64,000 nucleotides of DNA. It comes from Oscillospiraceae bacterium (GTDB taxonomy: Bacteria > Bacillota_A > Clostridia > Oscillospirales > Oscillospiraceae). Under the pieces are notes generated by a model that saw nothing but the letters and a program-made list of their open reading frames with translations, made no database searches and was not told the DNA's origin. Below, piece by piece: positions 51,987 through 61,774 of this stretch. The stretch spans positions 1 to 64,000 of the forward strand of contig JAFQUA010000047.1 of assembly GCA_017408725.1 (NCBI GenBank), written 5' to 3'. How positions within the stretch are numbered: position 1 is the stretch's first letter; each line of letters opens with the position of its first letter. A program made the position numbers and the translations under genes.

Positions 51987-52640
51987 ATGAGCTTTTCGGA
52001 GTATTTTCCGATTTGGAATAAATTAAATGCGGATCAGCAAAATCGCATTTTGTCTGTTACGGACTTTCAAAAAGTAAAAAGCGGAACGGTTTTGCATGAC
52101 GGCAGTCCCGATTGTCTGGGCATGTTGGTGGTGCGCAGCGGTCAGCTGCGGGCGTACATGCTTTCCGAAGAAGGCAGAGAGATCACTATTTGCCGCTTCT
52201 TTGAAATGGACATCTGTCTGTTCTCTGCTTCCTGCGTTATGCCGAATATGCAGTTCGATATTTTGATCGAGGCAGAAAAGGATACGGAATTCTGGGTCGT
52301 TCCGGCGTGCCTGTTCCAGAATTTGATGGACGAGTCCATTGTCATTGCTAACTATGCCCGCAATCTGATCACCAGCCATTTTTCGGAGCTGATGTGGCTG
52401 ATGGAGCAGATCATGTGGAAAAGCTTTGATAAGCGTTTGGCAGCGTTCCTGCTGGAGGAAACCGCGCTGGAAGAAACAAACAGCTTGAAAATAACCCATG
52501 AAAAGATTGCCAATCATATGGGCACTGCCCGGGAAGTGGTAACCAGAATGCTGCGATATTTCCAGGGTGAGGGGATGGTCAAACTGACCAGAGGCTCTGT
52601 GGATATCGTGGACGCATCCAAGCTTAGGAAATTGCAGTAA
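51987..52640 (+). CDS. Crp/Fnr-family regulator with CRP-type recognition helix
   Basis: A 217-residue regulator: cyclic-nucleotide-binding-like beta barrel (1-115), dimerisation helix (115-150) and C-terminal winged helix. The recognition helix has R182, E183 and R187 (AREVVTRML), matching E. coli CRP R180, E181 and R185, which read TGTGA. It lacks the phosphate-binding cassette of cAMP receptors. Five cysteines (43, 69, 77, 83, 108) could sense redox state. ATG 51987 follows AGGAGGG. I propose it binds the TGTGA palindromes at 53513, 60931 and 61760; that link is inference. Confidence 0.92.
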   Translation: MSFSEYFPIWNKLNADQQNRILSVTDFQKVKSGTVLHDGSPDCLGMLVVRSGQLRAYMLSEEGREITICRFFEMDICLFSASCVMPNMQFDILIEAEKDTEFWVVPACLFQNLMDESIVIANYARNLITSHFSELMWLMEQIMWKSFDKRLAAFLLEETALEETNSLKITHEKIANHMGTAREVVTRMLRYFQGEGMVKLTRGSVDIVDASKLRKLQ

Positions 52641-52670
52641 AAAATGTCCGTCATTTGACGGACATTTTTT
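52641..52670. terminator. Terminator between convergent Crp and ZIP genes
   Basis: TGTCCGTCA and TGACGGACA pair around TT, with A and T runs on either side. Confidence 0.9.
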
Positions 52671-52672
52671 GT

Positions 52673-53455
52673 TTAACCAAGCGCGACATCCAGCACCATC
52701 ATTAGCGTGAAGCCGGCGGCGAAGGAAAGCACACCCAGATGAGAATGCTCACCTTCTGACATTTCGGGGATCAATTCCTCAACAACAACATAAAGCATAG
52801 CGCCGGCGGAAAAGGCCAGAAGGTAGGGGAGAATGGGAACGACCAGACTTGCCATCAGAATCGTTAGTATAGCGCCGATCGGCTCAATAATACCGGAGGC
52901 AACGCCGTAACCAAAGGCCTTTCCCCGGCCCATTCCATTGGACTTCAGCGGCATGGAGATGATAGCGCCTTCCGGAAGATTCTGCAGAGCAATGCCGAGA
53001 GCCAGAGCCAACGCGGCAGCGGCAGATATGCTTTCATTTCCGGAAAGCCAGCTGGCCGCGACAACGCCCACAGCCATACCTTCCGGCAGATTGTGCAGCG
53101 CAACAGCCAGAACCATCATGGTGGATTTGCCTAAGTTGCAGGCTTTGCCCTCCGGGCACTCACTGTTTAAGTGCAGGTGAGGGATCAGCCAGTCCAGCAG
53201 CATCAAAAACAGGAAGCCTGCCCATACACCGACCAACGCGGGAAAGAATGCCAGCTTACCCATATGTTCCGACTGATCCATAGCCGGAATGATCAGGCTC
53301 CATATGGATGCGGCAACCATAACGCCGCCTGCAAAGCCGGTGAGGATCCGCTGCAGATTGCGGTTCATCTTTCCTTTGAGGAAAAAAACAAAGGCAGAAC
53401 CAATAACAGTACCAAGAAACGGCAGAAAAATGGCACTAAGAACTTCTATATTCAT
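52673..53455 (-). CDS. ZIP-family metal transporter
   Basis: A 260-residue membrane protein with eight helices. The metal-site helices are AVALHNLPEGMAVGV and ALQNLPEGAIISM (HNxPEG and QNLPEG), as in bacterial ZupT-like proteins. Between helices 3 and 4 there is a variable loop with histidines and a Cys pair (HLHLNSECPEGKAC). It probably imports Zn2+ or Fe2+. I use ATG 53455, with AAGGAG eight bases upstream, not the earlier ATG. It diverges from the flavodiiron gene. Confidence 0.92.
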   Translation of the reverse strand: MNIEVLSAIFLPFLGTVIGSAFVFFLKGKMNRNLQRILTGFAGGVMVAASIWSLIIPAMDQSEHMGKLAFFPALVGVWAGFLFLMLLDWLIPHLHLNSECPEGKACNLGKSTMMVLAVALHNLPEGMAVGVVAASWLSGNESISAAAALALALGIALQNLPEGAIISMPLKSNGMGRGKAFGYGVASGIIEPIGAILTILMASLVVPILPYLLAFSAGAMLYVVVEELIPEMSEGEHSHLGVLSFAAGFTLMMVLDVALG

Positions 53456-53512
53456 AACGGATACTCCTTGATAAGTTTTATTCATATTTTATTGTGGAAC
53501 GCACGTTGCTTC

Positions 53513-53555
53513 TGTGATAAAGTCACTGTACTTTTCCTCTTTATGTGTGTATAAT
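53513..53555 (+). promoter_or_regulatory. Crp-type operator and -10 of the flavodiiron gene
   Basis: TGTGATAAAGTCACT (53513-53527) is centred about 42 bases before the predicted transcript start; the -10 is TATAAT (53550-53555). No good -35 is present; the operator occupies its place, as at class II activated promoters. Confidence 0.65.
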
Positions 53556-53590
53556 ACTATCAAATCTAAAAGAAAGCAAGGAGAATGCAT

Positions 53591-60714: not shown

Positions 60715-60870
60715 TTAAGCTTCAGAAAACTGATCCTTGCCTACAAAGCAGAGGGGACATTCGAAATCTTCGGGCAGGTCTTCAAATTTTGTTCCGGGAG
60801 CAATTCCACCTTCGGGGTAACCCTGCTCTTCGTCGTATTCCCAACCGCAAACATCACATACATATTTCAT
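60715..60870 (-). CDS. Rubredoxin, second copy
   Basis: A 51-residue rubredoxin nearly identical in layout to that at 51701: CDVCGWEYDEEQG, GGIAPGTKFEDLP and CPLCFVGKD. GGAGG lies ten bases before ATG 60870. It is the first gene of the rubredoxin-trxA-trxB operon, behind a Crp-type operator. It can supply electrons to superoxide reductase or the flavodiiron protein. Confidence 0.95.
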   Translation of the reverse strand: MKYVCDVCGWEYDEEQGYPEGGIAPGTKFEDLPEDFECPLCFVGKDQFSEA

Positions 60871-60903
60871 AATTTTTTCCTCCAATTGTTTTTTTATAGT
60901 GAA

Positions 60904-60945
60904 AGTGTATCATAGTATTTTGTATTTTACTGTGATTTAATCACA
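60904..60945 (-). promoter_or_regulatory. Crp-type operator and -10 of the rubredoxin-trxA-trxB operon
   Basis: TGTGATTTAATCACA (60931-60945), with TACACT (60904-60909, minus strand) as -10 whose upstream edge is 29 bp from the operator centre. No -35 box is seen apart from the operator. Confidence 0.65.
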
Positions 60946-60951
60946 AACGAT

Positions 60952-61698
60952 TTAGCTTCTTGCCAGACCGTCAACCTGCAGCACCACGCCGGTGATGTAG
61001 GATGCTTCGTCAGATGCCAGAAACACGAAAGCATTGGCAATGTCTTCCGGCTGACCGAGGCGGCGTAACGGGATTTGCTGGATCATGGGGTCGATGACCT
61101 CTTTTGGAACGGCCTTCATCATATCCGTTTCCGTGATTCCAGGAGCGACAGCATTGACACGAATACCTTTGGGACCCAATTCCCGTGCAAGGGAAAGGGT
61201 AAAGCCGTTGACGGCAAATTTGGAAGTGGGGTAGGCAATGCCTGCCGGCTGGCCATAGATACTTACCATGGAAGAAGTGTTTAAGATGACACCGCTTCCT
61301 TTGGTTACCATGTGCTCTGCAGCCGCCCGGGTGGCATTGAATACACCCTTGACATTCAGATCCATGACATTGTCAAAGAGCTCTTCGGTGTAATCGGTAA
61401 AAGCAGCCCGCTCGGATACACCGGCGTTGTTTACCAGAATGTCGATACGGCCAAATTCTTTTTCCACATCGTTAAAAGCACTGCGGACGGATTCCAGATT
61501 GGTAAGGGTGGGGCTGATGCCACGAAGAGTGGCATCGGGGTATTTCTCCTGCAGGTTTTGCACTGCTTTTTCCGCTGTGGCAGGGCTGCTGGCGGTGAGG
61601 ATGACGGTGGCACCCTCTTTCAAAAATGCTTCTGCGGTGGCATAGCCGATTCCACGGCTGCCGCCGGTGATGATTGCAACTTTGTCTTTCAGTCTCAT
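60952..61698 (-). CDS. SDR oxidoreductase (FabG or 3-alpha-HSDH like)
   Basis: A 248-residue short-chain dehydrogenase with GGSRGIG (12-18), NNAG, the catalytic serine in LNTSSMVSIYG, and YPTSK (Tyr/Lys pair). Several features (EKYPDATLRG insert before the second strand, GVILNTSS, AGIAYPTSKFAV) look closer to clostridial BaiA-like 3-alpha-hydroxysteroid dehydrogenases than to FabG, though fatty-acid-type reductases cannot be excluded. No fab genes are nearby. It has AAAGGAGG as ribosome site and a Crp-type operator upstream, so it may be part of the redox regulon. Confidence 0.88.
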   Translation of the reverse strand: MRLKDKVAIITGGSRGIGYATAEAFLKEGATVILTASSPATAEKAVQNLQEKYPDATLRGISPTLTNLESVRSAFNDVEKEFGRIDILVNNAGVSERAAFTDYTEELFDNVMDLNVKGVFNATRAAAEHMVTKGSGVILNTSSMVSIYGQPAGIAYPTSKFAVNGFTLSLARELGPKGIRVNAVAPGITETDMMKAVPKEVIDPMIQQIPLRRLGQPEDIANAFVFLASDEASYITGVVLQVDGLARS

Positions 61699-61732
61699 AA
61701 GTGAGTACCTCCTTTGGTCGTTTTGTGACCTT

Positions 61733-61774
61733 ATCTTATCCTAAAAAATCGCTTTTATCTGTGATATAGTCACA
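61733..61774 (-). promoter_or_regulatory. Crp-type operator between divergent SDR and NuoE-like genes
   Basis: TGTGATATAGTCACA (61760-61774) with TAAGAT (61733-61738, minus strand) as -10, centre-to--10 distance 29 bp. On the plus strand the same site is about 60 bases before the start expected from TATACT (61815-61820), near a class I position. Confidence 0.65.

Follow-up and report, generated by a model that had tools for sequence, protein, structure and literature searches.

A predicted class II Crp/Fnr redox regulon built on a 15-bp operator and shared by two orders of Firmicutes

The 64,000-nucleotide stretch of Oscillospiraceae DNA analyzed here (contig JAFQUA010000047.1, positions 1 to 64,000; "the window") encodes Crp1, a regulator of the Crp/Fnr type. 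Sequence comparisons suggest that Crp1 very probably activates a small redox-defense regulon in the class II manner, acting through a 15-bp palindrome centered about 41 bp upstream of the transcription start. A first-pass annotation, made from the letters of the window, had proposed such a regulon. Its observation is confirmed, and its interpretation is supported, with amendments, by comparison with related genomes. The predicted oxygen-defense switch is larger than first claimed: a 15-bp class II redox regulon in two orders of Firmicutes that appears to be centered on thioredoxin and to include flavodiiron protein (FDP), rubredoxin/rubrerythrin, ferredoxin, and rhodanese genes. To our knowledge, the regulators of oxygen sensing and oxygen survival in strict gut anaerobes are largely unassigned. 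The analysis predicts a role for a widespread Crp/Fnr family that has a solved structure (PDB 3dv8) and for which our literature search found no function, and it supplies this family with a predicted DNA code, candidate sensor residues, and a promoter layout. It also poses a structural question, namely, by what means an operator shortened by one base pair is accommodated by a Crp dimer. The relevant features of the window are as follows.

51987..52640, + strand: crp1, Crp/Fnr-type regulator of 217 amino acids, proposed reader of the 15-bp site (Pfam cNMP_binding and HTH_Crp_2)
52673..53455, - strand: ZIP-family metal transporter, predicted target (Pfam Zip)
53486..53491, - strand: -10 box TAAAAT of the ZIP gene, 29 bp from the center of operator A; absent from the first-pass annotation
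53513..53527: operator A, TGTGATAAAGTCACT, between the divergent ZIP and FDP genes
53550..53555, + strand: -10 box TATAAT of the FDP gene, 30 bp from the center of operator A
53591..55381, + strand: FDP with flavin-reductase and rubredoxin domains (Pfam ODP, Flavin_Reduct, and RUBY_RBDX)
59450..60373, - strand: thioredoxin reductase, trxB (TIGR01292, above cutoff)
60384..60698, - strand: thioredoxin, trxA (Pfam Thioredoxin)
60715..60870, - strand: rubredoxin, first gene of the operon (from its translation, by eye close to the Pfam Rubredoxin protein at 51701)
60904..60909, - strand: -10 box TACACT of rubredoxin-trxA-trxB, 29 bp from the center of operator B; 4/6 match
60931..60945: operator B, TGTGATTTAATCACA, upstream of rubredoxin-trxA-trxB
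60952..61698, - strand: short-chain dehydrogenase/reductase (SDR), predicted target (Pfam adh_short_C2)
61733..61738, - strand: -10 box TAAGAT of the SDR gene, 29 bp from the center of operator C; 4/6 match
61760..61774: operator C, TGTGATATAGTCACA, upstream of the SDR gene

Three 15-bp palindromes in the window

The three palindromes of the first-pass annotation, at 53513, 60931, and 61760, were checked and are present letter for letter. They are the only three occurrences of GTGA-N5-TCAC in the 64-kb window, while the other spacers of 2 to 11 give 0 or 1 site. When the window was modeled as a first-order Markov chain, GTGAYNNNRTCAC was expected at a mean of 0.19 occurrences (maximum of 1 in 100 runs), and GTGAYNNNRTCAC accompanied by a -10 box at 28 to 30 bp was expected at a mean of 0.01 (maximum of 1). 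The excess fades as matching is loosened. With one mismatch allowed, there were 7 sites versus 3.1 expected, and 5 of 100 shuffles reached 7; with up to two mismatches, TGTGANNNNNTCACA showed no excess in the window (23 versus 27.5 expected).

Each palindrome had been described as lying 29 to 30 bp from a -10 box and as lacking a good -35 element. Both descriptions hold for the FDP, rubredoxin-trxA-trxB, and SDR promoters, where the hexamers at the -35 position are TGTACT, CAGTAA, and CAGATA, respectively. Operator A has two promoter sides: the ZIP half carries the flank AGAA that is typical of the family along with TAAAAT at 29 bp, and the FDP half carries TGTA along with TATAAT at 30 bp. The promoter of crp1 itself in the window is TTGACT-TATACT and has no 15-bp site.

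The N5 spacer is specific and the motif tracks Crp1

The site is one base shorter than the E. coli site, and this spacing holds in the loci of relatives. The best 80 of 215 Crp1 loci (59 to 80% identity to Crp1; 1.18 Mb) were examined; the closest belong to Oscillospiraceae or Clostridia bacteria, mainly from animal guts. TGTGA-N5-TCACA occurs 18 times in these 80 loci, versus 0 to 2 times for any other spacer of 2 to 11, and GTGA-N5-TCAC occurs 139 times, versus 4 to 29 times for the other spacers. The canonical 16-bp site was rejected as a Crp1 operator: TGTGA-N6-TCACA is absent from all 80 loci.

An extended motif, TTCYGTGAYNNNRTCAC, was then counted per strand in the 197 genomes of the order to which G007, the genome of locus L003, belongs. 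Matches numbered 98 (95 physical sites) and were spread over 65 genomes; a reversed version of the pattern gave 4. Genomes with a Crp1 relative at an E value of ≤1e-30 were called Crp1+ (71 of 197). The motif was present in 50/71 Crp1+ genomes versus 15/126 Crp1- genomes (Fisher P = 5e-17). Crp1- genomes held 15 matches where about 15.4 were expected, and Crp1+ genomes held 83 where about 9.7 were expected, the expectations being rough estimates that treat base composition as uniform and rely on assumed mean sizes for the genomes. No more than 5 kb separates the match from crp1 in 39 of 98 cases. A control motif with one more spacer base (N6) matched 27 times in the 197 genomes, and a single match was within 5 kb of crp1.

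The trend recurs, more weakly, in a second order of 146 genomes, where the motif was found in 15/25 Crp1+ versus 14/121 Crp1- genomes (P = 8e-7). Setting aside three Crp1+ genomes whose match falls in an rpoC-like frame leaves 12/25 (P = 1e-4). Of the 33 matches in this order (32 physical sites), seven have the crp gene at a distance of 5 kb or less. Crp1+ genomes contributed 16 matches, of which 15 were retrieved and their adjacent genes named by eye: 5 sites precede thioredoxin genes, 3 precede ferredoxin genes, 3 precede other redox-like genes, and 4 look like chance. Among loci of distant relatives (36 to 47% identity) that were fetched around a site (L259 to L274), a thioredoxin gene lies near crp and the site in 14/16, the exceptions being L260 and L274; thioredoxin and crp are head-to-tail or tail-to-tail in these loci.

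One genome, G032 (C1, near 8805), has an N6-spaced 16-bp site 397 bp from the gene for a 36%-identical Crp relative. This arrangement suggests that the spacing of the E. coli site may serve a distant branch.

Promoter geometry points to class II activation

To describe geometry, every GTGAYNNNRTCAC in L001 to L168 and the window was taken whether or not a promoter was visible, giving 263 distinct oriented sites (131 physical sites). With -10 boxes called at a ≥5/6 match including T1, A2, and T6, the box starts 29 bp from the center in 96 oriented sites, versus 11 at 28 bp, 10 at 30 bp, 10 at 34 bp, and 0 to 6 at any of the remaining distances between 8 and 69 bp. With a ≥4/6 match at 28 to 30 bp, 125/131 physical sites have a -10 box, 108 on one side and 17 on both; 6 have neither. 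The background for such a box is 3.6% per side.

The flanks of the site are asymmetric. RGAA directly follows the proximal half in 114/164 one-sided sites, and its mirror image, TTCY, flanks the distal half in 2/164. G is found at +8 from the center (-33) in 95% of one-sided sites and in 186/204 of all promoter sides. None of the 164 one-sided sites has a -35 hexamer matching TTGACA at 5 or 6 of 6 positions, and 9 match at 4. Loci L081 to L108 had been chosen with the TTCY pattern and L169 to L198 with a -10 box in the pattern, and L199 to L258 were cut around the matches from 36 genomes described below; the -10 statistics use only L001 to L168 and the window, and the flank asymmetry uses all loci then collected, the selection of which does not pick the side of the flank. 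In one second-order locus (L284), the promoter before thioredoxin lies on the side of the site that lacks RGAA.

If the -10 box starts at -12, the center of the site falls at -41, and TCAC spans -38 to -35, followed by the base at -34. The class II CRP site of E. coli, TGTGA-N6-TCACA, is centered at -41.5 with TCACA at -38 to -34. By this reckoning, the proximal half-site is in the same register as in E. coli, and only the distal half is shifted, one base nearer. The G at +8 and the A that follows it fall on the GA of a TTGACA hexamer with a 17-bp spacer, so RGAA resembles the remnant of a contact for sigma that has been merged with the operator; it may also extend the contact made by Crp1. 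An operator about 41 bp upstream of the predicted start, over a missing -35 element, is the arrangement of class II Crp/Fnr-dependent promoters.

A single symmetric site can face two divergent promoters, as at 53513-53527 in the window, in L003 (center 11528), and in L028 (center 15090). Among 20 two-sided sites in the larger set, RGAA is present on at least one side in 16 and on both sides in none.

Thioredoxin is the predicted core target

For 209 sites a downstream gene could be called: thioredoxin for 61, FDP for 37, crp1 for 31, SDR for 15, ZIP for 9, ferredoxin for 5, rubrerythrin-like for 4, rhodanese for 3, and nitroreductase for 2, with the remainder in smaller groups or unnamed. A -10 box at 26 to 33 bp accompanies 60/61, 32/37, 5/31, 14/15, 8/9, 5/5, 4/4, 3/3, and 2/2 of these sites, respectively. 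Since the loci behind this count had been chosen around crp1, FDP, or the motif, 36 Crp1+ genomes were searched in full (G151, which encodes a 54% relative, lies outside this set). They contain 104 distinct matches, 95 with a called gene, and 79 of the 95 genes fall in named redox or metal groups: thioredoxin (37), ferredoxin (11), rhodanese (7), SDR (7), rubredoxin/rubrerythrin (6), FDP (4), ZIP (2), and one each of nitroreductase, hemerythrin, ferritin, desulfoferrodoxin, and a DsbD/CcdA-like protein. The other 16 include one crp1 and several chance-like cases. Groups were named from one member each, by eye for thioredoxin, FDP, SDR, ZIP, and rubrerythrin; Pfam confirmed the representatives of ferredoxin, rhodanese, and the five single targets. 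In 12 genomes, the strict motif matched 1 to 4 times per genome. The regulon therefore looks small, often local, and redox centered, with thioredoxin as its probable core.

The FDP, rubredoxin-trxA-trxB, and SDR genes named as targets by the first-pass annotation do have -10 boxes in the window. Two amendments apply: thioredoxin is preferred to FDP as the core target on the basis of the target counts and the few FDP loci with a site (see below), and the ZIP gene had been missed. A NuoE-like gene, suggested to be served from a class I position, found no support and was dropped; its side of the site carries no class II signal, having neither a -10 box at 28 to 30 bp nor G at +8. A NuoE match is found in one record among the 80 loci and the window, most likely the window itself, which makes comparison impossible.

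Autoregulation of crp1 was also rejected as the design of the site. All 31 sites upstream of crp1 have a -10 box at 29 bp facing away from crp1 (≥4/6 match in 31, ≥5/6 in 29), with G at +8 on the away side in 30/31, and the -35 and -10 elements of crp1 lie at varying distances from the site. The site beside crp1 thus appears to serve the divergent neighbor, and an effect on crp1 itself is possible.

The FDP of the window (53591-55381) is a one-chain fusion of a beta-lactamase-like domain, a flavodoxin stretch (below the Pfam cutoff), a flavin reductase, and a rubredoxin. The window encodes two very similar rubredoxins, at 51701-51859 (- strand) and 60715-60870 (- strand). The former is divergent from crp1, with no 15-bp site in the intergenic space. 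Similar membrane-like proteins of 70 amino acids are encoded downstream of sites in two lineages, in L206 (site near 1333) and L071 (center 2904). The L206 protein has no Pfam match; a redox function is possible.

Crp1 keeps the DNA-reading residues of CRP and two cysteines

Crp1 scores above the Pfam cutoffs for both Crp/Fnr superfamily domains (PF00027, 27.8 bits with a cutoff of 27.5; PF13545, 57.7 bits with a cutoff of 27). It aligns with PDB 3dv8 over nearly its whole length (297.6 bits), and counterparts of C43, C77, and C83 are present there. The family is large, with at least 7,999 candidates, all at an E value of ≤1e-10.

The first-pass annotation had aligned R182, E183, and R187 of Crp1 with the E. 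coli CRP residues that read TGTGA. They do align with R180, E181, and R185 in the numbering of mature CRP. A role of R180 and E181 in the recognition of TGTGA by CRP is stated in PMC1274295. Conservation was assessed in an alignment of 135 distinct proteins, of which 111 with ≥53% identity and 19 below 47% were scored, 5 in between being left out. R182, E183, R187, C43, and C83 are present in 111/111 close and 19/19 distant relatives (130/130 scored). C77 is found in 91/111 close and 19/19 distant relatives (110/130), and H37 is found in 107/111 close and 12/19 distant relatives.

The cAMP pocket of E. coli CRP includes E72, R82, and S83. These residues are not kept in Crp1, which has S, F, and D at the aligned positions, in a low-identity stretch of the alignment. 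FNR senses oxygen with a 4Fe-4S cluster held by N-terminal cysteines. Crp1 has no such N-terminal cluster cysteines, its first cysteine being residue 43, and the NCBIfam Fnr model scored 31.5 bits with a cutoff of 228. Conservation of C43 and C83, loss of the cAMP residues of CRP, and the lack of any cysteine before position 43 together lead us to propose, tentatively, a thiol switch.

The window encodes a second Crp protein, Crp2 (crp2, 57706-58377, - strand), which had been said to lack the three DNA-reading residues. It does lack the glutamate and the second arginine, while an arginine is kept in the column of residue 182. A perfect 16-bp palindrome, TGTTGAAAATTCAACA, lies at 58390-58405, between the -10 box and the start codon of crp2. 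Palindromes of this TTGA/TCAA type are found upstream of crp2 in 12/14 records including the window, one of the 12 having only the shorter TTGAATATTCAA. This palindrome looks like an even-spaced operator for self-repression.

Proposed mechanism and alternative explanations

In the proposed mechanism, Crp1 would bind the 15-bp palindrome, with the consensus TGTGAYNNNRTCAC(R), at about -41 and, through class II contacts, would switch on rubredoxin-trxA-trxB, the SDR gene, the ZIP transporter gene, and the FDP gene in the window. Oxygen or peroxide would oxidize the thiols of C43 and C83, and thioredoxin, the main product, would reduce Crp1 again, closing the loop. Thiol oxidation at C43/C83 as the signal is a tentative proposal, and we place it somewhat short of an even chance. 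The 15-bp site, its assignment to the protein encoded at 51987, and the class II geometry have stood up to the comparative tests of spacer, of co-occurrence and proximity in two orders, and of the -10 peak at 29 bp. It is conceivable, although rather doubtful as a whole, that a thiol-switched Crp/Fnr branch in gut Firmicutes has Crp1 as its founding member and combines a 15-bp odd-centered operator, the canonical proximal register, a fused RGAA, a C43/C83-thioredoxin loop, and the use of one site for two divergent promoters.

Site, spacing, geometry, co-occurrence, and targets can be read from the genomes directly; binding and activation by Crp1, and its signal, are inferences from these features. 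Several observations weigh against this account. The -10 boxes of the trx operon and the SDR gene match at 4/6 positions only, and each has a rival box at 24 bp (TATGAT and TAGGAT, respectively), so the geometry leans on the statistics of the family more than on these two promoters. No exact match to the motif is found in 21/71 Crp1+ genomes. The N6 control is itself somewhat commoner in Crp1+ genomes (15/71 versus 11/126; P = 0.017), and part of the excess of the motif may therefore reflect composition, genome size, or a canonically spaced branch. The 4 chance-like sites among the 15 fetched from the second order comprise three in an apparent rpoC by eye (L288, L292, and L293) and one with no -10 box (L291). 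Four of 20 distant relatives (L275 to L278), fetched regardless of a site, have neither site nor thioredoxin in about 1.1 to 1.2 kb. At 30 FDP loci, a site is found upstream in 1/11 loci from Crp1+ genomes and 0/19 loci from Crp1- genomes, which suggests that FDP is a lineage-specific target, mainly near the lineage of the window. C77 is replaced by serine in 19/111 close relatives.

Odd 7-1-7 palindromes are typical of Fur/PerR boxes. Such a palindrome before oxygen-defense genes could mean that another factor with an odd-centered operator, for example, a Fur/PerR-family repressor, reads the 15-bp site and that crp1 is a mere neighbor; the sites beside crp1 could then mark it as a target. On the comparative data, which include no search aimed at Fur-family genes, we consider this very improbable: Crp1- genomes show no excess of the motif over the rough expectation, the GTGA half-site suits the R-E-R recognition helix that is invariant in the 130 scored proteins, and the geometry is that of an activator, with the -10 box fixed at 29 bp and no TTGACA-like hexamer in the one-sided set. 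Crp1 might instead bind as a repressor, covering the -35 region until a redox signal lifts the block. The operator, placed at -48 to -34 by the distances from center to box, does overlap the -35 position. The 164 one-sided promoters, having no usable -35 element, would be weak if no activator assisted them, and a fixed phasing of 29 bp is expected of a contact with polymerase and is not needed for a roadblock. Repression by Crp1 is thus unlikely, and activation by Crp1 from the 15-bp site is the reading that we retain.

What Crp1 senses is a separate question. Its former cyclic-nucleotide pocket could take up heme, oxygen, NO, or a different ligand in place of thiol oxidation, a serious contender that we also rate as slightly less than evenly probable. 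PMC6955866 describes PgRsp, for which 3dv8 was the modeling template, as a heme-binding protein with an effect on oxidative-stress genes; heme is therefore the main rival signal for Crp1, and this relationship counts against the thiol part of the proposal. H37 is widespread among close relatives, in keeping with a ligand, but is kept in 12 of the 19 distant ones, whereas C43 and C83 are kept in all 19. The absence of hcp from the named target groups, with 16/95 targets left ungrouped and no search aimed at hcp, would speak against an NO regulon of the HcpR type.

Comparison with known systems

In the literature search, no description of a 15-bp Crp-type redox regulon was found, several queries being weak and subscription journals lying mostly outside its coverage. 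In Firmicutes, TGTGA-type half-sites are used by the Fnr of B. subtilis, which acts near -41.5, and by ArcR-type regulators. These proteins have 16-bp sites and control anaerobic respiration and fermentation, and they are not known to control thioredoxin. For C. difficile, PMC10880999 describes its thioredoxin genes as being under sigB, sigG, and sigA, and the main text of that report mentions neither Crp nor Fnr. Two reports (PMC1274295 and PMC12915319) describe HcpR and HcpR2, Crp/Fnr proteins that, as predicted for Crp1, regulate redox genes in strictly anaerobic bacteria, Clostridia among them. They differ from Crp1 in their motifs (wTGTGAnnnnnnTCACAw, TTGACnnnnGTCAA, and GTAACnnnnGTTAC) and, going by the target groups named here, in their core target, hcp.

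PgRsp of Porphyromonas gingivalis shares with Crp1 its Crp/Fnr type, a link to oxidative stress, and 3dv8 as the model structure. It belongs to another phylum and is reported to bind heme, with hmu, bcp, and its own promoter as DNA targets, and the accessible text mentions no 15-bp site (PMC6955866). The structure 3dv8 is that of a Crp/Fnr family protein of Eubacterium rectale and served as the modeling template for PgRsp, according to the same report (PMC6955866). This protein belongs to the same family as Crp1 and, as far as our literature search shows, is known from its structure only. Crp1 shares with E. coli CRP at class II promoters the GTGA half-sites, the R-E-R helix, the proximal half-site at -38 to -34, and the lack of a good -35 element. 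It differs in its predicted 15-bp operator with the distal half 1 bp nearer, in having no cAMP-pocket Glu and Arg at the aligned positions, and in what appears to be a narrow redox regulon.

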